DNA of 39,306 nucleotides from Clostridia bacterium (GTDB lineage: Bacteria > Bacillota > Clostridia > RGIG6154). The stretch is from contig JAFQRW010000007.1 of assembly GCA_017409875.1 (NCBI GenBank), positions 1 through 39,306 of the forward strand, in the 5' to 3' direction. Numbering within the stretch: the stretch's first letter is position 1; every line of letters begins with the position of its first letter. Shown here in pieces: positions 172 to 23,748 of the stretch. The position numbers and the translations under genes were made by a program. The notes under the pieces are model-generated. The model had not been told where the DNA came from, ran no database searches, and was given only the letters and a program-made list of their open reading frames with translations.

Positions 172-2829
172 CTATCTTTCAATCAATCCGTATTTGAATT
201 TAATTCTTTCAAGCTTGTCTATCATAGGCTCGGATATGAACCAAAGGAAAAAGGCGGTTGAAAGTCCATGAATTAAATCAAATGGTACGCCTCTGATATA
301 AGCATAGATTAACATTGCTTTTGTGGGACTTGCCTGATACATTATTACGGATGCAGGGTTCATAATTCCGCCGTATATCACAAGTGTTGCAATAAATCCG
401 AAGATGCAAAGAGATGCTTTTGTTTTACGAAGAAATCCCTTTTTGAAAAATATCCCTGCGATAAAGCCGATAATGCCAAAAGCAAACATCTGCCACGGTG
501 TCCACGGACCTTGTCCAAAGAAAAAGTTTGAAACAAATCCGCTGACTGCACCTACCAAAAATCCCGTTTCTCCGCCAAAAGTTACGCCTGCAATAATTAC
601 AAGTGCAACAACGGGCTTGAACTGCGGAAGCATAAAGAATGCAGCCTTGCCTGCAACAGCAATAGCACATAGTACACTTATCACAATAAGCTCTCTTGCT
701 TTTGGCTTTCTTTGCTCAAAGATCATACAAAATGGTATCATAGTTTCGAGTATGATGAGTAAACTTATAAAATAATACTTTCTGTAACCTAAGAAGAAAA
801 CACCGACATAAATAGTAAGTGGTATTAAGAGCAGTATCAAAAATGTTGCCATAAGAGTTCGCTTTGTCAGTTTTCTGTCTGACTTTGGAACTTGCACTAT
901 TTTTATTTCAATGTCTTTTTGGGGAAAGAAGTTAAAACAAGCACCAAACAATGCTATTATCATAGCTATCTGATAAACGACGGTTTTTGAAAAACTTGTT
1001 AATATATTTATATCTGTTTTAAGCGGCAGATACATTAAAACAAAAAGCAAAGTTAATATACTGCCCCAAACAATTCTTGAGGGAGTAAGTTTTTTTTCTT
1101 TTTGTAGCTTGCTTTCCTTTTCAATCTTACGCCAATCAACAGTTCTTGATGTTTTTTCTCTCTTTTTTATACTGCCGCCACAAGCAAGGATAATATCTTC
1201 TGCTAAAACTGCATCAGAAAGGCAAGTTCTTGCCATACGGTTTGCGGATGTGGTATAGAAATTCTTACCTTTGAAAAACTCTCTCGGTGTGTCAACCGAT
1301 GTAATGTTTCCGTCAAAAACAAGAGCGCATCTGTCGGCGTGCTTTGCGCAAAATTCTATATCGTGAGATACCATAATAATTGTTACGCCGTTTGCTTTTA
1401 AATCCAGAAGAATATCTGCAAATTCTTCTTTAAAATGCGCATCCATTCCTTTTGTTGGTTCGTCAAGAAGAAGTATTTCAGGCTCCATAAGAAGTATTTT
1501 GGCAAGAGCTGCACGTTGCTGTTCACCGCCTGACAAATCGTAAGGGTGGCTTTCTAAAATATTTTCTATTCTGCAAAGTGCAGATATATTTTGTACTTTT
1601 TTTTCTTTTTCTGCCTCAGAGAGTTTCTTGCCAGAAAGTATTTCCATTAAATCAAGATAAACTGTTTTCTTTACAAACACACTCTGCGGATTTTGGGGAA
1701 GAACACCGAGAAGTCCGTCATACAAATTTTTGATTTTAGAAATACTCCGTCCTTTAATCTTTACATCTCCTCTGTACGGAGTGTTAAGACCTGATATAAG
1801 TGAAAGTGCAGTTGTCTTTCCGGTGCCGTTACCGCCAACCAAACAAAAGAGTTCGCCTTTGCTTACACTTATGTTTAATCCTTTCACTACATCAGGCAAA
1901 TCCTTTTTGTATCTGAACCATACATCTTTAATTTCAATAACGGTATCGGTATTTTCTTTTAAGTCATCACCGGGAATGACATTGGGATTCAAAATGTTTT
2001 CCTTTGAATATTCTTTTAGCCATATTCTGCCCTCACGAACTGTCAGAGGGCAAGGCAAAGCATTTACCACTTCACCGTGAACTCTCATAGGGGTTGGGAG
2101 CGCCTTATACATATCGTGATTTTGTGCCTTCAAAATTTTACCGACTTCTTTTGGGGTTTCATCGGCAATAATTTTTCCGTCATCCATAACAATAACTCTG
2201 TCTGCCATTGGAAAAGCATCTTCTAAACGATGCTCGGTGAGAATAATGGTCACCCCAAGCTCACGATTTATTTTTTCGAGAGTTTTAAAAAACTCGCCTG
2301 CGGCGATTGGATCAAGCTGACTTGTCGGCTCGTCCAATATAAGAACAGACGGCTGCATAGCCATAACAGACGCAAGATTTAACAACTGTTTTTGACCGCC
2401 CGAAAGCTCTGTTACATTTTTATAAAACCATGTCTGGATGCCAAAAAAAGATGCCATTTCGGATACTTTAATTCTTATTTCGGATTGTTTGTATCCAAGG
2501 CTCTCTAAACCAAATGCAAGCTCGTGCCATACCTTGTCGGTTACAATCTGATTGTCAGGATTTTGCATTACAAATCCAATGTCCGATGCTTGCTGCCTTA
2601 AATCATAGTCTGAAAGGGGTTTGTCATTAAAATAAATAGTTCCCTTTTTTTCTCCAAATGGTGAAAGTGATGATTTCAAAAGTCTTAAAAGCGTAGTCTT
2701 TCCGCAACCTGATTTACCGCAAAGTAAAACGAACTCACCTTGATTTACTATAAGGTTTATATCTTCAAGTGCTTGGTCGCATCTGTTCGGATAACTAAAA
2801 CTCAAATTTTTGATGCTTATGCTTTCCAT
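172..2829 (-). CDS. Fused ECF transporter: two ATPases plus membrane (S-like) domain
   Basis: An 885-residue fusion of parts that are usually separate. Residues 1-245 and 296-525 are ABC ATPase domains: Walker A at about 38-46 (GKSGCGKTT) and 332-340 (GGNGTGKTT), signatures LSGGQKQ (142) and LSGGEQQR (432), Walker B LILDEPT and LLLDEPT. These correspond to EcfA and EcfA'. From residue 585 the protein is membranous: about four helices to 705, then a segment (712-870) with Gly-rich helices around GGETGFLVGA that resembles an ECF substrate-binding S component. The start is set at 2829, where GGGGGGTGAG precedes the ATG; it overlaps the ecfT stop by 13 bases, so the two are probably translationally coupled. 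As the last gene of a cobalamin-riboswitch operon, its substrate is inferred to be a corrinoid. The S-component assignment is moderate; the ATPase assignment is secure. Confidence 0.85.
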   Translation of the reverse strand: MESISIKNLSFSYPNRCDQALEDINLIVNQGEFVLLCGKSGCGKTTLLRLLKSSLSPFGEKKGTIYFNDKPLSDYDLRQQASDIGFVMQNPDNQIVTDKVWHELAFGLESLGYKQSEIRIKVSEMASFFGIQTWFYKNVTELSGGQKQLLNLASVMAMQPSVLILDEPTSQLDPIAAGEFFKTLEKINRELGVTIILTEHRLEDAFPMADRVIVMDDGKIIADETPKEVGKILKAQNHDMYKALPTPMRVHGEVVNALPCPLTVREGRIWLKEYSKENILNPNVIPGDDLKENTDTVIEIKDVWFRYKKDLPDVVKGLNISVSKGELFCLVGGNGTGKTTALSLISGLNTPYRGDVKIKGRSISKIKNLYDGLLGVLPQNPQSVFVKKTVYLDLMEILSGKKLSEAEKEKKVQNISALCRIENILESHPYDLSGGEQQRAALAKILLMEPEILLLDEPTKGMDAHFKEEFADILLDLKANGVTIIMVSHDIEFCAKHADRCALVFDGNITSVDTPREFFKGKNFYTTSANRMARTCLSDAVLAEDIILACGGSIKKREKTSRTVDWRKIEKESKLQKEKKLTPSRIVWGSILTLLFVLMYLPLKTDINILTSFSKTVVYQIAMIIALFGACFNFFPQKDIEIKIVQVPKSDRKLTKRTLMATFLILLLIPLTIYVGVFFLGYRKYYFISLLIILETMIPFCMIFEQRKPKARELIVISVLCAIAVAGKAAFFMLPQFKPVVALVIIAGVTFGGETGFLVGAVSGFVSNFFFGQGPWTPWQMFAFGIIGFIAGIFFKKGFLRKTKASLCIFGFIATLVIYGGIMNPASVIMYQASPTKAMLIYAYIRGVPFDLIHGLSTAFFLWFISEPMIDKLERIKFKYGLIER

Positions 2830-3689
2830 TTTCTCACCCCCCACAACTCAATTATTATTGGATATATACAAACAAGAAGATATGCTGCGAATACGCTTAT
2901 ACTAAATAGTGAAATCTCTGCCGGCTTTATAGCAGGGAAATAGCGAAAATACATTCCTGAGCACAAGTTTCCGACAAGTGTATATAGCCCTGACATCAAA
3001 ATGGCTAAAAGTGCTTTTTTATCTCTCTTATCAAAAGTAAATATTGAAAAGTGCGTTCTTCCTGGGATTCCGTATCCACGGGATTTCATACTGTCGGCTG
3101 TTTCGATTGCATTTTCTAAAGACCAGGTTGTCATAATAGAAAGGATATTAAGACCACTCTTTGCTCGTTTTATAATACTTCCGTTACTTATATCTTTTCC
3201 CATACACCTTTGGGCGTTTGTTACCACTTTTAACTGTGCCGAAAACCTTGGAACAAACCGAAGCGTCATAGAGATTACAAGCGACACCCCCGGAATGATT
3301 TTCCCGAACAGGCAGATAAACTTATCACTTGTCATTATTTCGTTATAGCACGAAAACCAGCAGATAACGCTGACAATCATAACAGCCGCCGCAAGCCCGT
3401 AAACAATCGATTCAAGAGTAACAGGATTGTCATTTGGCAGATAAAAGAGTATTGTTACGCCTTCGTGATTAAAGGCAGGGTTTATAAGTGCCATTGTGAT
3501 AATCATTGGCAGCATATATATTAAGTTGTTTTTTATTGCCTTTTTGCCTTTTAGCATCACCGAGTATGCAAAACTGCATAGCAGCGATATTAAAAGACAC
3601 ACAGGATGCATAAAAAGGCAAGAAAACCCGATAACAAATATAAAATATATGAAATTAACAAGCGGATGAAAATTTTTAAATTCCGACAT
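2817..3689 (-). CDS. ecfT: ECF transporter transmembrane protein EcfT
   Basis: About 290 residues, the usual size for EcfT, the membrane scaffold that couples the two ATPases to the substrate-binding subunit. It has several hydrophobic helices near the N-terminus and at the C-terminus. The cytosolic coupling region carries the family's two short Arg motifs, here A-x-x-SRG-like stretches around SMKSRGYGIPGR and the helix containing AKSGLNILSIM. I place the start at 3689 (MSEFKNF), where GGGAGAT lies six bases upstream; that start is inside the end of the preceding DUF4430 gene (14-base overlap), implying translational coupling. The longer upstream frame has no ribosome binding site. It sits between the surface binding proteins and the fused ATPase/S protein, completing an ECF module. 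Confidence 0.85.
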   Translation of the reverse strand: MSEFKNFHPLVNFIYFIFVIGFSCLFMHPVCLLISLLCSFAYSVMLKGKKAIKNNLIYMLPMIITMALINPAFNHEGVTILFYLPNDNPVTLESIVYGLAAAVMIVSVICWFSCYNEIMTSDKFICLFGKIIPGVSLVISMTLRFVPRFSAQLKVVTNAQRCMGKDISNGSIIKRAKSGLNILSIMTTWSLENAIETADSMKSRGYGIPGRTHFSIFTFDKRDKKALLAILMSGLYTLVGNLCSGMYFRYFPAIKPAEISLFSISVFAAYLLVCIYPIIIELWGVRKWKA

Positions 3690-4350
3690 AACTATCTCCC
3701 AAGTCTTTTCCCATATTGCATGTATATGAGATTTCAATGCAGTCTCCGGGTTTAAGCTCATATAATGAGCAACCTGCGCTCGGACTAACTCCGTTTACTT
3801 TATACAACCACCCTGAAAGCTCTCCGCAATCAAATTCATAAAGGTTTGCGATTCCCTTAATATATGCACTTTCATAAATTGGGGTTATCTCAAATTCAAA
3901 ATGAATTTTATTTTGCTTTGTTTCTCTTAAGACAACGTTAAAAACACTTTCTCCATCATAAAAAACTACATCTTTTTTGGAATAGATAATCCCGTTTGCA
4001 GGAACAATGCTCCTTTTTTCTTCTTTCATCATACTAAGGTTATTAAGAATTGTATCACATCTTATGCTAAGTGTGCAAGTTAGATTTTCATTTTCTTTGG
4101 TTGCTTTTTCTGCACTTTCAGGCAAAACATCTGTCGTGGGTGGCAAAAGCTCTGTAGAAGCTTCATCAGTTTTTTTGTTTATCTCAATATTTTGAGATAA
4201 ATCATTATTGTCAGAACTTGTTTCCTGATTTAAAGTGTCCGCTTTTTGTACAGGCAATTTTGCAATATCCGGAGCAGAAACCATTTCCCAGACAAACACA
4301 CTTAAAAGCACTAAGATAACACAAATTAAAGCAATTACTTTGTTTTTCAT
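3676..4350 (-). CDS. Membrane-anchored transcobalamin C-terminal-like (DUF4430) protein
   Basis: 224 residues. Residues 6-24 form a signal anchor, followed by a Ser/Thr/Glu/Asn-rich linker of about 70 residues, then a DUF4430-type domain (about 92-220). The domain shows an opening beta strand (CTLSIRCDTIL), the GES-V repeat-like strand, the hallmark SGWLYKVNG, and the closing L-PGD-IE-SYT strand. In vertebrate intrinsic factor and transcobalamin, this fold is the C-terminal domain that closes over cobalamin. The gene lies 5 bases after the SLH-anchored protein with the same domain and overlaps ecfT. I infer that it sits on the outer face of the membrane and passes corrinoid to the ECF transporter. 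Binding of cobalamin is inference; the domain assignment is good. Confidence 0.75.
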   Translation of the reverse strand: MKNKVIALICVILVLLSVFVWEMVSAPDIAKLPVQKADTLNQETSSDNNDLSQNIEINKKTDEASTELLPPTTDVLPESAEKATKENENLTCTLSIRCDTILNNLSMMKEEKRSIVPANGIIYSKKDVVFYDGESVFNVVLRETKQNKIHFEFEITPIYESAYIKGIANLYEFDCGELSGWLYKVNGVSPSAGCSLYELKPGDCIEISYTCNMGKDLGDSYVGI

Positions 4351-4355
4351 TTTAT

Positions 4356-6566
4356 CTATATAAGCTTTGAAATTACCAGCATACTGTAAATAAGCTGTGC
4401 AATTTCACCACGGCATACCTTAATTGACGGCTGGATTTTAAGGTCATCTTCCCAAAGATTGTTTTTATAGCAAAATGCAAGAGCGTCAGTTGCCCATTTA
4501 GAAGATGTTGTATAATCAGAAAATCCTGACAAAATATTGCGATAGTTTGTTATTTTTGTATCAAGACCGCAAAGCGATGCTGCACGAAAAGCCATAACAG
4601 CAGCCTCTTCTTTTGTGATAAGTCCATCGGGGTTAAATTCTTTGTCAGACACTCCCTTTATAATGCCGTATGCATACGCAGTATTTACATAATCAAAAAA
4701 CCATTCATCTGATGATATATCTGTAAATATTTTTCCGTCTTTAATAGGCAGACACAAGCCGTTTACAATTATTGTTGCAAATTCTGCTCTGGTCATAAGT
4801 CCGTCAGGCTCAAATTTTATATTGTCTTTTCCACTAATAATTCCTCTTTGAGCAAGAGCTTCAATGGCAGATTGATTTTTGTGTCCTTTAACGTCAGCAA
4901 AAGTTTTTGATTTGTCTGTAATTTCACGCTTTTTAATGTCGGGATTTTTGTTTTCTAAGCCCCACTGTTGTTCGCTTTTGTTGGAACTTCCCGTGGATGA
5001 AGGGGAGTAGCTTTGAGAGGTTCTTTCTAAAGTATAATCATCTGTATAAAACCAAACAATAGTTTGATTGTTGGAAAGATATGTTTGATCGCTTCCTTTG
5101 TCAGAAAATGCACCGTCTACAGTAAACATCCACCCTGAATTACTTCCGTGATCGAACTCTTTTATGTTGTTTATTGACGATATGTAGCCGTTGTTTTCGA
5201 CATAAGCTGTATTGTTAGAATTAAGTGCAGTAGTTAGTGCCTTTAAAACACTCTGGCCTTTTTTAATTGTAACAGTTTTGCTTACCAAAGGCTTATATAA
5301 ATCCGAATTGTGCCTGTAGGTGAAAGAGTTTTGACATTCACTTTCATTATGAACCATAACTTTTACTTTTACATTTATGTTGTTATCAGAACCTCCAAAG
5401 TGTTGCTTTGGAGACAAAGTAACAGAAACTGTTTTTGGGATATGATTTTGAGCTTCTTCAGGCGAAATTATAACAATTCCGCTGTTAGATTGGTATACTG
5501 CATGCGAAACAGAATAATTATATGTTCCTGCAGGCAGGTGGTATTTAAATGAATCTACTTGTGATACACCTTCTATATTTACCACAGCATCAGCAGGCGT
5601 TACATCAAAAGTGACAGGGGCATATTCCGCCAATGAGGCATGGGCCTCGTTATACGGATTATCAGCAAAATCATAAATTCTTGTGCCATCTGTAAGTAAT
5701 GTAGACAAAAGTCCTCTAAAGCCTTGCTCGGTTGAAAAAGAATTATAACTTGGCTCAAAACCGTCGTTATTTTCAGTTGCCACCGACATAAGTCCGTCAA
5801 ACAAGTCTTTGCCGTTGTTTGTTATACTTGTTGAATCAATACCTAGCGCAGAAAATGCTGCCATTGCAAGTCCGTGAGATGCTGCGTTGCTGATAAGTCC
5901 TGTTTCATCCTGAAACGCAGTAATAATAGGAATAGTTTCGTCAACAGCAGCTTTAACCAAAGCGTTTGAATTATAATATGGCGCCAAGGATAGCAGCATA
6001 GGGGTTGCAGCATCAGTTCCCCACGTTGTGCTTTGCCATGCAGCTTTTGTTTCAAGAGCTGTTGAAATCAAATAATCCATCTGTTGGTTTGTTGCATAGT
6101 CTGTGCCTTGCTGCAATGCTAAAATAACATAAGGTAGTGTGTACTCATTTGTAACAGATGCATCTTTGCTGTCTACCAGAGTGGTAAGCTTGTTTACTAC
6201 ATCAATTTTAGTAAGGTTGGCGGTGTTGACATTTTTGGCATCATACCCCAATGCTCTTAAAGCAATAATTGATTTTGCAAGAGCCGAAGGAGTTGTTGCA
6301 GCATCTGCTTCAGCAATTATTTTGTCAAGACAGTCTTGCTTTATAACAGGTGTAATCATACTCTTGTGATATACTTGCTCATACACCGTCATATCAGACA
6401 CAAACCACATCATGTTGGAATCATTAACGAGATTTTCACCTGAATACTTTTGGGCAATGTTGTGAATAATTCCTTCTTGAATTTCAGCAGCGCTTATCGG
6501 ACATAAACAACAGCCTAAAATAAGCATTACGCTTAAAATGATTGATAGAATTCTTTTTGTTTGCAT
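4356..6566 (-). CDS. SLH-anchored intrinsic-factor/transcobalamin-like surface protein
   Basis: 736 residues, exported. Order of parts: signal peptide (1-27; processing near SAAE, though a Cys at 19 could also suggest a lipoprotein); an all-helical region (about 30-315) with repeats like prenyltransferase/squalene-cyclase alpha/alpha barrels (for example the GLISNAASHGLAMAAF stretch at 223); a PEGA-like beta segment (318-388, with LPAGTYNYSV); a DUF4430 domain (396-512, hallmark SGWMFTVDG at 477); a Ser-rich linker; and three SLH repeats (555-605, 614-664, 681-732) that bind secondary cell-wall polymer. Helical barrel followed by this C-terminal domain is the arrangement of vertebrate intrinsic factor and transcobalamin. 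It is the first gene after a cobalamin riboswitch and terminator, with the ATG preceded by AAAGGAG. Inferred role: capture of corrinoids at the cell surface. Confidence 0.75.
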   Translation of the reverse strand: MQTKRILSIILSVMLILGCCLCPISAAEIQEGIIHNIAQKYSGENLVNDSNMMWFVSDMTVYEQVYHKSMITPVIKQDCLDKIIAEADAATTPSALAKSIIALRALGYDAKNVNTANLTKIDVVNKLTTLVDSKDASVTNEYTLPYVILALQQGTDYATNQQMDYLISTALETKAAWQSTTWGTDAATPMLLSLAPYYNSNALVKAAVDETIPIITAFQDETGLISNAASHGLAMAAFSALGIDSTSITNNGKDLFDGLMSVATENNDGFEPSYNSFSTEQGFRGLLSTLLTDGTRIYDFADNPYNEAHASLAEYAPVTFDVTPADAVVNIEGVSQVDSFKYHLPAGTYNYSVSHAVYQSNSGIVIISPEEAQNHIPKTVSVTLSPKQHFGGSDNNINVKVKVMVHNESECQNSFTYRHNSDLYKPLVSKTVTIKKGQSVLKALTTALNSNNTAYVENNGYISSINNIKEFDHGSNSGWMFTVDGAFSDKGSDQTYLSNNQTIVWFYTDDYTLERTSQSYSPSSTGSSNKSEQQWGLENKNPDIKKREITDKSKTFADVKGHKNQSAIEALAQRGIISGKDNIKFEPDGLMTRAEFATIIVNGLCLPIKDGKIFTDISSDEWFFDYVNTAYAYGIIKGVSDKEFNPDGLITKEEAAVMAFRAASLCGLDTKITNYRNILSGFSDYTTSSKWATDALAFCYKNNLWEDDLKIQPSIKVCRGEIAQLIYSMLVISKLI

Positions 6567-6640: not shown

Positions 6641-6764
6641 TGAGTTTTCCTGTGACCAATCACAATTCAGATGAGAAAATCAGACAAACTCCGACGGATG
6701 CACTAAAAAAGCAAGCCTAAAATACCTCACGTGAAAAAGCTACCCCTATGCAAATGAGCACTTA

Positions 6765-6985
6765 CGGAATAACATCAAAGCAGGTCTTGTGACTTACACC
6801 ATATAGACAGATTCGTCCGCATTTTTATATCCTGCCTTCTCAGTTTCCCAATGACTATCTTTCGATAACGGACATAAAAACTTTGATGCACACACCGACA
6901 GTTCTCGCAGGGGATTCTCACCCCATTCCCTTTCCACCGATTATGCCTTGCTTAAGAGCTTTTGCGACATAATCAACACTTTGTG
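6765..6985 (-). promoter_or_regulatory. Cobalamin (adenosylcobalamin) riboswitch aptamer
   Basis: The minus strand carries the conserved cobalamin-riboswitch core. A GGTGGAAAGGGAA segment is followed by GGGGTGAGAATCCCC (about 6908-6932), and the B12-box-like GTCACAAGACCTGC lies near 6780-6794. Flanking GCATCAAAG and CTTTGATG can pair across the aptamer. It precedes a terminator and a transport operon. Boundaries are approximate. Effector identity is established for the family; the exact corrinoid preference cannot be read here. Confidence 0.9.
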
Positions 6986-7010
6986 TGAATGTATTAAATT
7001 TTACTTTTTA

Positions 7011-7113: not shown

Positions 7114-7396
7114 ATATTAAATGCGTTTGAGCAGGAACAAGTAAGTTTGGAAGGAACCTTTGAGAGAGTTGCCGGATGGTGCGAGGCAATGGGGATATCC
7201 ATACCGAATACATCTTGCGAGCAGTGCACCGAACAAAGTTTAGTTTTAAGTAGGCTGCAACGGGAGTTCCCGTTATAGAACTAAGGTATGTAAGTACCTG
7301 ATAAGGCTGCTACCGTGAGATAGCGGCGAACTGAGGTGGTACCACGGGATAAGTTATCTCGTCCTCTGTATCTAATAAAGATGCAGAGGATTTTTT
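7114..7396 (+). promoter_or_regulatory. T-box leader, probable tyrosine specifier (UAC)
   Basis: The T-box sequence GAGGTGGTACCACGGG lies at 7333-7348 and is followed by a terminator: TCCTCTGTATCT (7362-7373) pairs with AGATGCAGAGGA (7379-7390), then six T. Stem I has the typical distal part (TTGCC, GGATGGTGCGA, GGCAA). The specifier loop is bounded by CAAG/CTTG helices; the codon in the position used in the known glyQS leader, followed by A, is TAC at 7209-7211. This predicts sensing of uncharged tRNA-Tyr, so the gene is transcribed when tyrosine is scarce. The T-box call is firm; the specifier is read by analogy. Confidence 0.9.
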
Positions 7397-7432: not shown

Positions 7433-8959
7433 ATGACAAACGCACAACTTTACACAATCATTGCACTTTGTATTTATGGATTTATAATGGCTTTGATTGG
7501 TTGTATAAGTTACGGAAAATCAAAAACACTTGACAAGTTTCTTATCGGCGGTAGAAATATCGGCGCATGGGCAACTGCATTTGCTTATGGTACTACATAT
7601 TTTTCAGCAGTAGTGTTTGTAGGTTATGCTGGGCAACATGGTTGGAACATTGGTCTTGGGAGTATTTGGATTGGCATAGGGAACACTATTTTAGGTTGCC
7701 TTCTTTCGTGGCTGTTGTTTGCAAACAGAACAAGAAAGATGACAAAAAAACTTGGCGCAAAAACAATGCCTGATTATTTTGAAAAGCGTTACTCTTCAAA
7801 AGGTATGAAGATTCTTGCAGCAGTTATAATCTTTGTATTCTTGGTTCCTTATTCGGCAGCTGTATACAAAGGGCTTGGGTCTTTGTTTAGTGCAGTATTC
7901 CCCGGAGTTGAAACATGGGTATGGATGCTTATCATTGCTTGTCTTACAGCGATATATCTTGTTGCAGGCGGATATGTTGCAACAGCATATACAGACCTTA
8001 TTCAGGGAATCATCATGATTGTTGGTGTTATATGCCTTGTTGTGGTAGTTTTAGGACACGATGCAGTTGGCGGACTTTCAGGTCTTGTAACAAATCTTGC
8101 AGCTATATCGGGCGATGGAAAGCAACTTGCAAATATTTTTGGTGGTTCATCTTTTAAATTCCTTTGCTTTAACATTATGCTCACAAGCTTCGGCACATGG
8201 GGACTTCCGCAAATGATTGGTAAGTTCTATGCAATCAAAGATACAGCGGCAATTAAGCGTGGCACAATTATTTCTACTATCTTTTGTATTGTTATTGGCT
8301 GTGGTGCATATCTTATCGGCTCAACATCAAGACTTGTTTTAGGCGGCGTTCTTCCTGAAGGCGGTGTTGACTCTGTAATTCCCACACTTCTTATGGAAGT
8401 TTTAGGGGGAGGAACACTTGGAATTATCCTTTTGGCTATTATTATGATTCTACTTCTTTCAGCATCAATGTCAACTTTAGGGGCAGTTGTTTTAACTTCT
8501 GCTTCAGCTGTTGCGGTTGACCTTATCCCTGCTGTAAGGAAAAAGAAAACAAATCAGGAAACACAGATGCTTCTTACAAGAATTCTTTGTCTTGTATTTG
8601 TTGCTTGTTCGTTTATTTTTGCAATACAAAAAATCGCAATCATTGTAAGTCTTATGTCATTTTCCTGGGGAGTTGTATCCGGTTGCTTTATCGGACCTTA
8701 CATTTGGGGACTTTTCTCAAAAAAGATTACAAAAATCGGTGCTTACGCAGGTATATTATCAGGACTTTTAACTGTGGGCATTTCAACACTGGTTATAACA
8801 ATAAATTCCGGATTTGCAGATGCAGCTGCAAAATCTCCTGAAATGGGGGTTGCTGCAATGGCAGTTTCTCTTATTGTTGTGCCTGTTTTAAGTGCATTTA
8901 CAAAGAACAAAGACAGCAAAAAAGTAGAAAAAATCTTTGCTTGCTACAATGAGGAATAA
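7433..8959 (+). CDS. Sodium:solute symporter (SSS family), probable tyrosine/amino-acid importer
   Basis: 508 residues with about 13 hydrophobic helices, the size and pattern of the SSS/PutP family. Family-like stretches include FLIGGRNIGAWATAFAYGTT near residue 35 and the Gly-rich, Ser-rich helix LLSASMSTLGAVVLTSAS around 340, in the region that binds Na+ in this fold. The start ATG follows AAAGGAGG by 7 bases. It is alone between its own T-box leader and a bidirectional terminator. The T-box specifier suggests tyrosine as substrate, which motif reading of the protein cannot confirm; SSS members also carry proline, pantothenate, sugars and others. It would use the Na+ gradient, consistent with the Na+-type ATP synthase nearby. 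Confidence 0.85.
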   Translation: MTNAQLYTIIALCIYGFIMALIGCISYGKSKTLDKFLIGGRNIGAWATAFAYGTTYFSAVVFVGYAGQHGWNIGLGSIWIGIGNTILGCLLSWLLFANRTRKMTKKLGAKTMPDYFEKRYSSKGMKILAAVIIFVFLVPYSAAVYKGLGSLFSAVFPGVETWVWMLIIACLTAIYLVAGGYVATAYTDLIQGIIMIVGVICLVVVVLGHDAVGGLSGLVTNLAAISGDGKQLANIFGGSSFKFLCFNIMLTSFGTWGLPQMIGKFYAIKDTAAIKRGTIISTIFCIVIGCGAYLIGSTSRLVLGGVLPEGGVDSVIPTLLMEVLGGGTLGIILLAIIMILLLSASMSTLGAVVLTSASAVAVDLIPAVRKKKTNQETQMLLTRILCLVFVACSFIFAIQKIAIIVSLMSFSWGVVSGCFIGPYIWGLFSKKITKIGAYAGILSGLLTVGISTLVITINSGFADAAAKSPEMGVAAMAVSLIVVPVLSAFTKNKDSKKVEKIFACYNEE

Positions 8960-9046: not shown

Positions 9047-11506
9047 CTATTTTTTAAGTCCCAAAATCTCTGTAGATTCATCACGCATTTTATACTTTAA
9101 GATTTTGCCTGCTGCATTCATTGGAAATTCATTTACAAACAAGAAATATCTGGGAACCTTGTGGCGGGCAATAGATGCATTACCAAATTCACGCATTTCA
9201 TTTTCGTCTGATGTTTCACCTTTATGCAATATAATCCACGCGCAACATTCTTCGCCATATCTTTCATCGGGAACGCCGACTACCTGAACATCACGCACTT
9301 TGGGATTTGTTAAATAAAATTCCTCAATTTCGCGTGGGTAAAGGTTTTCGCCGCCACGAATAATCATATCTTTAAGTCTTCCGGTTACTTTATAGTATCC
9401 GTCCGGAGTACGGCAACAAATATCACCTGAATGAAGCCATCCGTCTGCGTCGATTGCCTGAGCGGTTGCCTCAGGCATTTTATAGTAACCCTTCATGATA
9501 TTAAACCCACGTGCAACAAATTCGCCGCTTTCACCATCAGGTAATTCTTCACCTGTTTCAGGGTCAATAACCTTACATTCAACACCCGGGAAAGGACTTC
9601 CAACCGTCTCAACACGATGGTCAATATCTTCGTTTACTTCACCCATGGTACATCCGGGGGAAGCTTCTGTCTGACCATAAACAGAAATGATTTCACGCAT
9701 ATTCATTTCATCTGCCGCGCGGCGCATCAAGTCGGCAGGGCAGTTAGCTCCAGCCATAATACCTGTTCTCATATACGAAAAATCTGTTTTTGCAAAGTCA
9801 GGATGATTAAACATCGCAATAAACATTGTGGGAACTCCGTTAAAACAAGTTATATGCTCATCGTTAACGCATGCAAGCGATGACTTTGGCGAAAAGTATG
9901 GTATAGGACAAAGTGTTCCGCCGTGAGTCATCGTTGATGTCATTGAAAGAACCATGCCAAAGCAATGGAACATAGGAACCTGAATCATCATACGGTCTGC
10001 TGTTGACAGGTCCATTCTGTCACCGATAGTTTTTCCGTTATTTACAATATTGCGATGAGTAAGCATAACACCTTTAGGGAAACCCGTTGTACCTGATGTG
10101 TATTGCATATTACAAACATCATCAGGCTTAACCAATGATGCACGTCTTCTTACTTCTTCACGTGGAACGAGCGATGAACGTGAAAGCATTTGTTCCCAGG
10201 TAAGACAGCCTTCCATTGAAAATCCTACCGTTACAACATTTCTGAGGAACGGCAGATTTTTAGAATACAGCAGTTTGCCGGGTTCAAGATTTTTAAGTTC
10301 AGGGCAAAGCTCCATAATTATTTCTTTGTAGTTAATGTCCTTACAATACTCAATCATAACGAGGGTATGCGTATCTGATTGTTTTAAAAGATATTCAATT
10401 TCATGAATTTTATAGGCTGTATTAACAGTTACAAGTACAGCGCCTATTTTGGTTGTTGCCCAGAAAGTGATAAACCACTCAGGAACATTTGTTGCCCACA
10501 CAGCAACATGGTCGCCAGCTTTTACACCCATCGAGATAAGAGCTGCTGCACATTCATCAACATCACGCCTGAATTGCTCATAAGTTCTTGTGTAATCGAG
10601 CGTTGGATATTTAAAAGCATACTGGTCAGGATATTTTTCTGCCATTTTATCAAGAACGTCAGAAAATGTGGCATCAATAACATCGTATTTTTTCCACACA
10701 AAAGTTCCTGTTTTTGCTCTGTTATAATACGCACGGTCAAAACTCTTCTTTTCACGTTTGAGTGATGAAATATAGTTAGTAAAATGGGTCAGAACAATAT
10801 CTGCATCATTGATATCTTCATTCCATGCCGCACAGATAAATCCGTCAAAATTAAGAGAAGAAAGAGCATTGATTAAATTTTCTACAGGAAGCTGTCCTTC
10901 GCCAATTAAAACGGTTTTTCCATCCTTCATATCACCAAGACGAACATACTTTATATATGCTCCGAGAGTTTTAATTGTTGTTTCTGCCGTTTCGCCGGCA
11001 CCGAAATAAGTGCCTCTGACATTCCAGGAAGCGCCAATTGCCGCAGATGAGAAAAAGTTAATAATATCAACAACTTTTTCTGTATTGGAAAGATAACCTA
11101 CAGTTTCAAATAGAATTCCTATATCAGCCTTTTCAGCGAGTTTTATCGCATCATAAAGCTTATCTTTTAATATATCAAACGATGTCTCTTCTTCAACACG
11201 CACTATAATGTTTTCAACACCTGAATTTGATGCCATAGTTACATATTTTGAAACAACATCTGCAGTAGTATCATCGCTTTCAATGGGATGAGGCATACGA
11301 AGTGCGGAAATCGCAAGATTTCTGTTTACAAGCTTTCTTTTTGCATCAGCGGTTTGTTCACGTCTCAATATGCTGTCGTGATGCTGACTGCGCATCTTTA
11401 TGGCATCGTATATCTCAAATCCTGCAAATCCGTAATCGTAAGCATAGCGGCACATTTCAAAAAAGGATGCACGGTTTACATTTTTAGTTGAAAATACAAT
11501 CTTCAT
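9047..11506 (-). CDS. Sugar-isomerase-like TIM barrel fused to acyl-CoA ligase
   Basis: 819 residues. Residues 1-250 resemble xylose-isomerase-like TIM barrels (sugar phosphate isomerase/epimerase), with one ligand-type Glu retained in LFETVGY (E134). Other usual metal ligands look replaced: W161 and R164 where D and H are expected, and R189 in YVRLGD. Residues 270-819 form a complete ANL-family AMP-forming ligase: P-loop YTSGTTGFPKG (468-478), YGQTEA (609-614), GWLHSGD (688-694), hinge GRLKDMIIRGGENLYPREIE (708-727) and catalytic Lys in NAAGK (800). It should adenylate a carboxylic acid and form its CoA thioester. The ATG at 11506 has GAGGAGG just upstream and starts one base after the stop of the preceding gene, so the two are co-translated under the leucine T-box. 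The acid substrate is unknown; a branched-chain or leucine-derived acid is a guess from context. Confidence 0.8.
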   Translation of the reverse strand: MKIVFSTKNVNRASFFEMCRYAYDYGFAGFEIYDAIKMRSQHHDSILRREQTADAKRKLVNRNLAISALRMPHPIESDDTTADVVSKYVTMASNSGVENIIVRVEEETSFDILKDKLYDAIKLAEKADIGILFETVGYLSNTEKVVDIINFFSSAAIGASWNVRGTYFGAGETAETTIKTLGAYIKYVRLGDMKDGKTVLIGEGQLPVENLINALSSLNFDGFICAAWNEDINDADIVLTHFTNYISSLKREKKSFDRAYYNRAKTGTFVWKKYDVIDATFSDVLDKMAEKYPDQYAFKYPTLDYTRTYEQFRRDVDECAAALISMGVKAGDHVAVWATNVPEWFITFWATTKIGAVLVTVNTAYKIHEIEYLLKQSDTHTLVMIEYCKDINYKEIIMELCPELKNLEPGKLLYSKNLPFLRNVVTVGFSMEGCLTWEQMLSRSSLVPREEVRRRASLVKPDDVCNMQYTSGTTGFPKGVMLTHRNIVNNGKTIGDRMDLSTADRMMIQVPMFHCFGMVLSMTSTMTHGGTLCPIPYFSPKSSLACVNDEHITCFNGVPTMFIAMFNHPDFAKTDFSYMRTGIMAGANCPADLMRRAADEMNMREIISVYGQTEASPGCTMGEVNEDIDHRVETVGSPFPGVECKVIDPETGEELPDGESGEFVARGFNIMKGYYKMPEATAQAIDADGWLHSGDICCRTPDGYYKVTGRLKDMIIRGGENLYPREIEEFYLTNPKVRDVQVVGVPDERYGEECCAWIILHKGETSDENEMREFGNASIARHKVPRYFLFVNEFPMNAAGKILKYKMRDESTEILGLKK

Positions 11507-11507
11507 T

Positions 11508-12899
11508 TTATGCCTCCTCAAAAACTATCTTGTTAAGAGCATTTATATAAGCTCTGATGCTTGCTGCAACTATGTCTGTAGAAATGCCGTTTCCGGAATA
11601 GAGCTTTCCATTATTACGAAGTCTTACAACAGCAGAACCTAATGCTTCTTTTCCTTCTGTTACTGAATGAACCTGAAAATCATCGAGTTCATAATGATGC
11701 CCTATACATTGCTCAATCGCACGGAATGCTGAATCAACAGGACCGTCGCCTGTGCTTACTCCACATATAATTTCATCGTTGCATCTTAATGTTACCTGAG
11801 ACATAGCATTTGTAAGATTGCTGCTATTGGTAGTGTAACTTTCAAGATGATATGTTGACGGTGCCTGCATAGCAGAGCTTGCAATTAATGCCTCCAGCTC
11901 TTTTGCACCAACTTCACCTTTCTTTTGTAATATCTGCATAAGTGCCTTGTGTACGTTTCCACAATCAGAATCTGAAAGATCGTAACCTAAAACATTGGCA
12001 GCTTGTGCAACCTGAGCGATTGTAGAGTCTGAATCAAGAAGAATTTTCTTCTTTTCACTCACCATATTTTCTGCTTCGTATGCCTGGTGGTTAATAGTTG
12101 CCAGCATATCGTCAATACTTGCATGGATTTTTGTATTATTAAGATTTGTTTCAGCACTAAGCTGTGCAGAGCAAGCATTCATTGCATCTGATATTTCACC
12201 GGTTAAAAGCACATCTTTGCCTGCCATAGCACATTTAAGACCGTCAGCGCCTTCCTTTACTGATGCAATAGCCGAAGCAACACCCATATTTATACGGTCA
12301 GAAACCTGAACATATACCAAAGCGTTTACCGATTCTTTTACCTTTTTTACTAAAGCTGCTATTTCTTCAGGGAGTGATACTCCTGCATCATCACAAATAG
12401 TAATGATGCCTGCACCATTTGCGATAGCTTCTTTAGCAGCGGAAATAAGAAAATCGGCATCTGCACGGGTTGCATCAAGTGCACAAAATTCTACATCGCA
12501 ACAAAGTTGTTTTGCTGCTTTGGTCAATTCGCCGATTTTTAATATCATTTTATCAGCTTTGATGTGATATGTATATTCCATCTGCACAGTAGAAACAGGC
12601 ACCTCAATCTGAAGACGAGGCTTTTTGGCATCTTTAACACATTCATAGGCTGCTGCAACATCTTGCGTGCTAAATCCTACAGGAATAGCTAAAGTAGCAT
12701 TTTGCACATTCTGCGCAATAGTTTTATAAATGATAGTGTCTTCGCGAATATTTTTTATAGGCGGAAGTTCAACTGCATCTGCGCCAAGTTTATCTGCACA
12801 AGCAGCAATAGCCGTTTTTTCACGGAATAGAAGCGCAACTTCACGATCAGCAGAAAGTTTTTTAAGCGTAATGTCAGCAGTGTTGATTTTTTTACTCAT
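11508..12899 (-). CDS. Isopropylmalate-synthase-like protein, catalytic site lost
   Basis: 463 residues. The C-terminal part (350-460) is a well-conserved LeuA dimerisation/allosteric domain: GDGPVDSAFRAIEQ at 384, SVTEGKEALG at 412, GNGISTDIVAASIRAYI at 436; in true isopropylmalate synthases it binds leucine. The N-terminal TIM barrel is recognisable (FCALDATRADADF at 138 matches the family's ExxxR-type strand) but the catalytic motifs are gone: the family's LRDGEQ is KLSADRE (14-20), and the metal-binding HxHND is QVSDR (198-202). It therefore should not catalyse the Claisen condensation. The frame is intact and controlled by a leucine T-box. The start at 12899 (MSKK) follows GAGAGGAG. Possible roles: leucine-binding regulator or partner of the downstream ligase, or a new activity. 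The family assignment is strong, the role unknown. Confidence 0.8.
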   Translation of the reverse strand: MSKKINTADITLKKLSADREVALLFREKTAIAACADKLGADAVELPPIKNIREDTIIYKTIAQNVQNATLAIPVGFSTQDVAAAYECVKDAKKPRLQIEVPVSTVQMEYTYHIKADKMILKIGELTKAAKQLCCDVEFCALDATRADADFLISAAKEAIANGAGIITICDDAGVSLPEEIAALVKKVKESVNALVYVQVSDRINMGVASAIASVKEGADGLKCAMAGKDVLLTGEISDAMNACSAQLSAETNLNNTKIHASIDDMLATINHQAYEAENMVSEKKKILLDSDSTIAQVAQAANVLGYDLSDSDCGNVHKALMQILQKKGEVGAKELEALIASSAMQAPSTYHLESYTTNSSNLTNAMSQVTLRCNDEIICGVSTGDGPVDSAFRAIEQCIGHHYELDDFQVHSVTEGKEALGSAVVRLRNNGKLYSGNGISTDIVAASIRAYINALNKIVFEEA

Positions 12900-12949: not shown

Positions 12950-13222
12950 AAAAAAACGTTCCCATCTCTTTGTTGCTTCAAAGAGACGAAAACGCTAAAA
13001 TTTCAATGTTTCCGCGGTACCACTCTTCTTCATCCTTTTTGGATGCACTTTAGATGCAAACACATCTTAACTCTGTAACGGGAGTTCCCGTCTGCCCCTA
13101 CTAAAGTTCACGGCAGCCACTCCGCGGTGAGTTCTGCAAAGCTTTCCCAATGTCTTGCACCATCCGACATCTCTCTAAGGGCGAAAGTTTTTGCATACTA
13201 TTCCGCATCACAGCGTTTGAAA
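12950..13222 (-). promoter_or_regulatory. T-box leader, probable leucine specifier (CUC)
   Basis: On the minus strand AGAGTGGTACCGCGGAA (complement of 13010-13026) is a canonical T-box, followed by a terminator hairpin whose arms include TCTCTTTG and CAAAGAGA, ending in seven T (complement of 12950-12956). Stem I shows the typical GTCGGATGGTGCAAGAC distal part. The specifier loop is closed by GCGG/CCGC below and GCAAA/TTTGC above; within it AGAACTCA places codon CTC at 13131-13129, followed by the usual A. The 5' side carries the AGTA element. This predicts sensing of uncharged tRNA-Leu, matching the isopropylmalate-synthase-like gene downstream. Confidence 0.92.
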
Positions 13223-22590: not shown

Positions 22591-23748
22591 TTAGTTGTTA
22601 AGCAATTTGTCGAGCGAGGTTTCACTCATTTCTCCTGTTTTTAAATTACGCATTATAGCAGTTTCTTCGTTTACCCATATTACAATGGTAATTCCTTTTT
22701 CTTCTCCGTATTCTATAGCGTCAATCATTGAAGCACCAGAAACATAATCTTCAACTTTTAAGCCCTGAGCACGAAGACCAAATGAAACCTTATAGGCAAG
22801 CTTTGGAATATCTGATGCAACAACTGCTAATGGTATAAGCTTTGAATCTGTATCTGAATCTGAGTAAATAAGTTCGGTGATTTTGCTTATTTCAAGATAT
22901 CCGCCTACAAGAGGGATGTTTCTGCCAAAGTCTTTTGCTAAAGAGTTGCATCTTCCTCCTGCGCATACTGCAAAGTCTTCGGTTTTGTTAACCGTTCCTT
23001 TGAAAATCATTCCGGTATAATACTCTTCAAAATCTGCAATTCCAAGGTCAACCGAAATATATTTTTCCATATCGTATTCACAAAGAAGTTTATAAATTCT
23101 CTTAATATTTGAGAGTGCATTTTTGGATTCTTCACCTAAAATATCCATATTTATCTCATCATAAATATTAAGGTCACCAAAAAGGGTGGGAATTGATAAT
23201 ATAAGCTTTTTGTAATCAGCACCGATGTTGTTTTTGCCAAGATAATTCTCAAGTTTTTGTGTGTTGTTTTCTGAAATAAGAGATTTTAATTCCAAAACAT
23301 TAAGACTTAAATCTTTGGCAATTCCGCCTATAAAGCCTGCATTTGAAAGACAAATGGTAAATTCCGTCATTCCAATGCCTAAAAGTGAGTTAATCATAAT
23401 AGATATGACTTCAGCGTCGGCTTTGGGACCCGCTTCACCTGCAAGCTCAATGCCCAAAAGTGAAATTTCGCCACAGTCACAGCCCATATATGAACAATTT
23501 TTATACACATTTCCGCCGCAGTACAGCCTTTCAGGCAAAACGCAGTCTTTTAGAGTGGTTGAGAGCTGCTTTGCAACTAAAGTTTTAAGGTCATCTCTAA
23601 TGCTAAGATTGTCTGTGCCTGAAATGGGCAAGTCAATTTCGTTATAACAGTAGCTCTCAAAAATTCCTATAATATTTTTTTCAATGCTTCTTTTTAAAGT
23701 GCATTTACTGCCTTCAAAAACAAGCGGTTCATAGTTAGTATTTTTCAT
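22591..23748 (-). CDS. hisZ: HisZ-like ATP phosphoribosyltransferase regulatory subunit
   Basis: 385 residues, a class II histidyl-tRNA-synthetase paralogue. The N-terminal core has GNVYKN and SLLGIELAGEAGPKADAEVI, matching the motif-2 region of HisZ, with the tRNA-synthetase Arg replaced. YYTGMIFKG (about 240) and CAGGRCNSLAKDFG (about 260) match the HisZ/HisS histidine-pocket and motif-3 regions. In short-HisG organisms HisZ activates HisG, the first step of histidine synthesis. The C-terminal 80 residues look like an anticodon-binding-like domain. No hisG is in the window. It has its own consensus promoter and heads a unit with the ECF sigma pair. Histidyl-tRNA synthetase itself is unlikely given the lost motif-2 Arg. 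Confidence 0.7.
   Translation of the reverse strand: MKNTNYEPLVFEGSKCTLKRSIEKNIIGIFESYCYNEIDLPISGTDNLSIRDDLKTLVAKQLSTTLKDCVLPERLYCGGNVYKNCSYMGCDCGEISLLGIELAGEAGPKADAEVISIMINSLLGIGMTEFTICLSNAGFIGGIAKDLSLNVLELKSLISENNTQKLENYLGKNNIGADYKKLILSIPTLFGDLNIYDEINMDILGEESKNALSNIKRIYKLLCEYDMEKYISVDLGIADFEEYYTGMIFKGTVNKTEDFAVCAGGRCNSLAKDFGRNIPLVGGYLEISKITELIYSDSDTDSKLIPLAVVASDIPKLAYKVSFGLRAQGLKVEDYVSGASMIDAIEYGEEKGITIVIWVNEETAIMRNLKTGEMSETSLDKLLNN

Follow-up and report, generated by a model that had tools for sequence, protein, structure and literature searches.

The window analysed here, a stretch of 39,306 nucleotides from a Clostridia bacterium, carries a gene for a homologue of 2-isopropylmalate synthase (LeuA) which, judged from its residues, is almost certainly inactive as LeuA. 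On balance, we favour the reading that selection has maintained this dead LeuA as a partner for the adjoining acyl-CoA ligase, in an operon for leucine starvation that would convert isovalerate to leucine under leucine feedback. That the operon makes leucine from isovalerate is probable. That the dead LeuA is the leucine-sensing partner of the ligase is argued by analogy, and here we regard the case for and against as evenly balanced. The features concerned, all on the reverse strand, are:

12979..13220 (-), T-box leader with leucine specifier GAA-CUC-ACC (RF00230, 131.5 bits, gathering score 93)
11508..12899 (-), catalytically dead LeuA homologue, ORF from ATG at 12899 to TAA at 11508, 463 aa, no internal stop
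12210..12899 (-), degenerate TIM barrel of the HMGL type (residues 1-230) that has lost its metal ligands and kept its fold
11511..11918 (-), LeuA_dimer regulatory domain, residues 328-463 (Pfam 117.1 bits, dN/dS 0.042)
9047..11506 (-), fusion of a TIM barrel with an AMP-forming acyl-CoA ligase, 819 aa, with isovalerate as the presumed substrate
10712..11506 (-), AP_endonuc_2-type TIM domain of the ligase (Pfam 39.9 bits)
9050..10684 (-), acyl-CoA ligase domain (AMP-binding 321 bits, dN/dS 0.038)

Lost active site and kept regulatory motifs

Pfam recognises an HMGL-like domain (residues 18-227, 94.5 bits) and a LeuA_dimer domain (residues 329-458, 117.1 bits) in the protein. With the six best-scoring NCBIfam leuA models it reaches 150-241 bits where the cut-offs are 517-748, and the closest approach to any LeuA cut-off (241 vs 532) is still below the curated threshold. 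An earlier note, made from the sequence of the window alone, had claimed an intact frame that has lost LRDGEQ and HxHND, including both metal-binding histidines and the aspartate, and has retained GDGPVD and GxGxSTD in the regulatory domain. All of this holds: the 463-aa frame has no internal stop, LRDGEQ and HCHND of real LeuAs align with LKKLSA and QVSDR, and GDGPVD (384-389) and SGNGISTD (435-442) are present. Two further losses, absent from that note, are the deletions of the NGxGERAGN loop and of the SGIHQDG segment.

The losses are common to the whole dead-LeuA family. The metal-ligand aspartate, the first and the second metal-ligand histidine and the histidine of HQDG are each found in 0/95 family members vs 8/8 real LeuA/CimA proteins, and the column of the GERAG glutamate is empty in 95/95 and filled in 8/8, respectively. 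At the asparagine of GERAGN, the six commonest letters account for 90 of the 95 members and asparagine is not among them. L087, a second copy on one contig, was excluded from these residue counts as well as from the dN/dS and co-evolution analyses described below. The catalytic roles of the metal-binding aspartate and histidines and of the GERAGN and HQDG residues are assumed here from LeuA enzymology. The glycine-rich GDGP and GNGxSTD motifs, common to real LeuA, are nearly invariant in the dead LeuAs.

In an AF2 model of the dead LeuA, the barrel (residues 1-230) has pLDDT values mostly near or above 90 and the regulatory domain has low confidence, with block means of about 39-70. The closest solved structure to the model is the LeuA 3ewb (Z 37.0, rmsd 1.5 over 263 residues). 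A PDB sequence search with the family profile reached LeuA barrels and did not reach a leucine-bound regulatory domain.

The adjoining ligase and the leucine T-box

The ATG of the ligase gene lies 1 nt past the stop codon of the dead LeuA, and a GGAGG is located within the end of the dead-LeuA gene. The fusion ligase is found directly downstream in 84/84 close dead-LeuA loci (window included, a few duplicates) and in 19/20 loci from the class, the twentieth of which holds a true LeuA; the 19 comprise 15 divergent members (35-47% identical) and four repeat contigs already counted. The best PDB sequence matches of the fusion ligase are fatty-acid and other ligases of low similarity, which is a point against our main reading with its presumed substrate.

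A T-box core is present within 330 nt in 79/94 upstream regions; it was not found in the remaining 15, which belong to 11 divergent members and to L043, L050, L074 and L079; this too is counted against our main reading. All 79 parsable family leaders have a leucine specifier (77 CTC, 2 CTG), and in a control the same specifier patterns gave TAC for the second T-box of the window. Among nine sources searched with RF00230, L211 and L212 also exceeded the gathering score. A leucine T-box switches genes on in leucine shortage. Taken together, the T-box and the AMP-forming ligase argue for a synthetic direction of the operon.

The fusion ligase also occurs without a dead LeuA in many Clostridia, often under a leucine T-box, and this has to be counted against our main reading, since it means that the pathway as such can do without the dead LeuA. 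In 20 selected ligase-only neighbourhoods (L229-L248) a dead LeuA was found in none, in ten the ligase is preceded by a T-box core whose specifier, read by eye, is CTC, and in one (L233) VOR genes (for a ketoisovalerate-type 2-oxoacid:ferredoxin oxidoreductase) adjoin. At these ligase-only loci the TIM domain keeps its metal-site residues, and the host Clostridia keep a full-length LeuA/CimA.

In the ligase TIM domain of the window clade, alignment shows the presumed metal residues replaced (WDxHH by WNVRG, HxKDS by RLGDM and LEW by AAW). Most divergent members keep them, and therefore the metal loss in the LeuA barrel is the older of the two. Distances in the LeuA barrel and in the TIM domain remain correlated when those in the ligase are controlled for (partial r 0.58, Mantel p 0.001; 69 of the 80 sequences, those near full length), the slow ligase being a poor control for the species tree, and we regard co-evolution of the two domains as suggestive. 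The same correlation, with its poor species-tree control, and the loss of metal sites in both barrels of the window clade would favour a reading in which the dead LeuA is a structural scaffold that holds the ligase by its fused TIM domain, uses the regulatory domain for dimerisation and senses no leucine. We consider this unlikely, though the strongest of the alternatives: a scaffold need not keep GDGP and GNGxSTD, yet these motifs are nearly invariant.

The window contains further regulated genes. A second T-box (7117-7369, +) with the tyrosine specifier UAC precedes a sodium:solute symporter (SSF) ORF (7433-8959, +), and this position suggests a possible role of the symporter in the transport of tyrosine or of an aromatic precursor. 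A cobalamin riboswitch (6762-6997, -) precedes ORFs 172-6566 (-) for an SLH/DUF4430 protein, a CbiQ-like protein and an ECF-type transporter. These ORFs probably form an operon for the uptake of cobalamin or corrinoids, including a binding protein at the cell surface. A HisZ-like protein (22591-23748, -; 158 bits vs a cut-off of 272) adjoins an ECF sigma factor, a zinc-finger anti-sigma candidate and SSB; HisG was not noticed beside it.

Selection and origin of the family

A scan of genome contigs yielded 106 relatives, of which 80 loci with 67-84% identity were kept. They stem from metagenome-assembled Clostridia, Clostridiales or Oscillospiraceae, many of them from the ruminant gut according to the record titles. 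Median dN/dS over the 80 sequences (pairs with dS < 1.2) is 0.127 for the barrel, 0.135 for the linker and 0.042 for the regulatory domain. Relaxed selection across the whole gene, which the earlier note had named as an outcome speaking against it, is thus not seen, as dN/dS is low throughout and lowest in the regulatory domain; its claim of a selective loss without decay is supported by conservation in many species and by the low dN/dS in every part.

In a search of the class, 45/391 genomes, spread across many families, match the family profile at 1e-80 or better, the weakest match (G263) being a true LeuA locus. The earlier note had also proposed a phylogeny against true LeuA. When 23 dead LeuAs were placed in one tree with 14 true ones (without the wrong-frame row L260, the long CimA-like rows, the MRDGNQ-type rows and L047), the dead ones formed a single clade on one side of a branch with support 100/99. 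Their partner ligases are one group inside the fusion-ligase family with weak support (75/62), in a tree without the incomplete sequences L207 and L213 and without L249 and L250, which the motif pattern missed. Since the dead LeuAs are one clade and the partner ligases one group, a single origin of the family appears likely from the sequences. A few entries are non-independent: G004 and G034 (the genome of L090) have the same coordinates and L005 is from the same genome, and L217, L218, L219 and L220 are, judged by their length, repeat contigs of L060, L012, L024 and L026.

Among positions conserved in at least 22 of 24 dead LeuAs, those private to the family number 3 of 27 in the barrel (F25, P101 and K114 only) and 17 of 45 in the regulatory domain. 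This distribution points to a new constraint on the putative sensor part and gives no sign of a new active site. It bears on the possibility that the barrel has acquired a metal-independent activity, for instance on an acyl-CoA or a 2-oxoacid, which would fit the retention of S103, D142, R145 and D170, residues common to real LeuA barrels. Such an activity seems quite improbable to us in view of the few private barrel positions, the deleted loops and a barrel dN/dS three times that of the regulatory domain.

Proposed synthesis of leucine from isovalerate, and related systems

The window genome, of 1.46 Mb and 98% complete, encodes two HMGL proteins, the dead LeuA and an oxaloacetate decarboxylase/pyruvate carboxylase-type protein. 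No genuine LeuA, no LeuC and no IlvC (KARI) were found in it, the sole aconitase-family protein being 762 aa long and not LeuC-sized; KARI is present in 8/35 genome entries searched (one genome twice). The absence of a true leuA from the genome, which the earlier note had listed as half of a case against a sensor, is therefore real. We do not count it against the sensor reading: with the metal site, the GERAGN loop, the HQDG segment, leuC and ilvC all missing, the gene could not complete the standard pathway. An active LeuA is rejected on the same site loss together with the missing leuC and ilvC.

The acyl-CoA ligase, VOR and IlvE are all present in the window genome and are linked in relatives. 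In the window genome, VorB (534.6 bits, cut-off 399) and IlvE (484.4 bits, cut-off 307) are encoded in one operon on a separate contig (C4), apart from the dead LeuA, and no T-box above threshold was found at this operon; both points are counted against our main reading. The genome also carries PFOR-sized and indolepyruvate oxidoreductase genes, the latter adjoining a ligase with a PaaK-type C-terminal domain. After the VOR genes (stretch L158) follow an HTH-cupin regulator (5716-6267, -) and a further acyl-CoA ligase (3992-5686, -) that may serve isobutyrate or 2-methylbutyrate. In another stretch (L164, 4743-10072, +) an indolepyruvate oxidoreductase lies between two acyl-CoA ligases, one of them PaaK-like; by a possible parallel route, arylacetates may be turned into aromatic amino acids here.

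IlvE and/or VOR genes are located near the dead LeuA at L055, L059, L074, L081, L082 and L086/L087, in the longer stretches L159-L161, and at the class loci L203, L206, L208 (IlvE only), L210, L211 and L212. The dead LeuA, the ligase and IlvE/VOR genes form a same-strand run at L074, L203, L206, L210, L211 and L212. At L206 and L212 the dead-LeuA gene is followed in turn by those for the ligase, IlvE, an ATPase, a ferredoxin and VOR, and L074 starts in this order until its contig stops inside the ferredoxin gene. Many other loci are short stretches, in which missing IlvE/VOR genes carry no information.

A full-length LeuA/CimA, defined as a LeuA_dimer protein of at least 501 aa, a length that does not separate LeuA from CimA, is encoded in 20/20 ligase-only genomes vs 13/46 dead-LeuA genomes (7/32 distinct genomes plus 6/14; Fisher p 2.8e-8, a guide only, given the kinship among the genomes and the incompleteness of many of them). 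In genomes at least 90% complete, the numbers are 18/18 and 7/14. The 13 of 46 genomes that hold a dead LeuA and a full-length LeuA/CimA together are counted against our main reading. The full-length protein of G016 looks CimA-like.

From these genes the following course can be proposed. In leucine shortage, uncharged tRNA-Leu would let the operon be read through the T-box, as in known T-boxes. The fusion ligase would activate isovalerate to isovaleryl-CoA, VOR may carboxylate this to 2-ketoisocaproate, and IlvE may aminate the latter to leucine, the direction and substrate of both last steps being presumed. The dead LeuA would bind leucine via its kept domain and restrain the ligase, as HisZ acts for HisG. 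The leucine-sensor role suggested earlier fits these sequence data and gains strength from the leucine-codon T-box and the ligase partner, both absent from the earlier note. More tentatively, a new class of sensor can be envisaged, in which the dead LeuA binds leucine and throttles an isovalerate-CoA ligase, so that T-box control is combined with allosteric control taken over from the replaced pathway. Uptake of leucine by transport is a possible alternative supply.

The opposite direction, a Stickland-type oxidation of leucine to isovalerate, is very improbable in our opinion, as IlvC, LeuA and LeuC are missing and, like T-boxes in general, a leucine T-box turns genes on in shortage of its amino acid. 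VOR-type enzymes are reversible and the catabolic ones adjoin acyl-CoA-using genes in Clostridia, which would suit catabolism, but the known catabolic VOR clusters, as far as the available part of one report describes them, use kinases or ADP-forming ligases (PMC13285125), whereas the ligase of the window belongs to the AMP-forming family. A pseudogene or relic being lost, for which the catalytic loss might be cited, is hardly conceivable and was rejected given the open frame, the synteny, the low dN/dS across 80 sequences and a phylogeny with one old clade spanning many families.

If our preferred reading of a selected ligase partner is correct, it supplies candidate genes for the activation of isovalerate and its control in a lineage without standard branched-chain amino acid synthesis. 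Allison (1962, 1966; cited in PMC7356843) reportedly described how rumen bacteria form leucine by carboxylation of isovalerate. Isovalerate has been known as a leucine precursor of rumen bacteria since the 1960s, and the genes are what is proposed here; no gene assignment for the pathway, and no paper on an operon of dead LeuA and ligase, was found in the openly licensed literature searched. In the parts of the texts available, isovalerate serves as a leucine precursor in the rumen (PMC7356843, PMC10658910). The system of the window resembles this pathway in its predicted product leucine, in the often identical environment (by record titles) and in the presence of VOR and IlvE.

With 2-isopropylmalate synthase LeuA (TIGR00973, PRK00915) the dead LeuA shares the HMGL-like barrel, the LeuA_dimer domain and the best structural matches; it differs in lacking the metal ligands, the GERAGN loop and the HQDG segment (95/95) and in scoring far below the cut-offs. 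The available part of a study of the leucine T-box regulon gives leuA as a known target (PMC2494555). The leader in the window likewise has a T-box with a leucine specifier, but its targets are a dead LeuA and an acyl-CoA ligase.

The dead LeuA can finally be compared with HisZ, which is a dead homologue of histidyl-tRNA synthetase descended from HisRS. HisZ is the regulator of HisG, according to the available parts of two reports (PMC10795190, PMC9734150). Both proteins are dead homologues of an enzyme of the same amino acid, are under selection beside a catalytic partner and keep the presumed end-product-binding part. The dead LeuA differs from HisZ in its descent from LeuA and in its partner, an acyl-CoA ligase, and its complex and effector are predictions. 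If these are true, the dead LeuA would join HisZ as another example of a biosynthetic enzyme that has lost its activity and acts as an end-product sensor.
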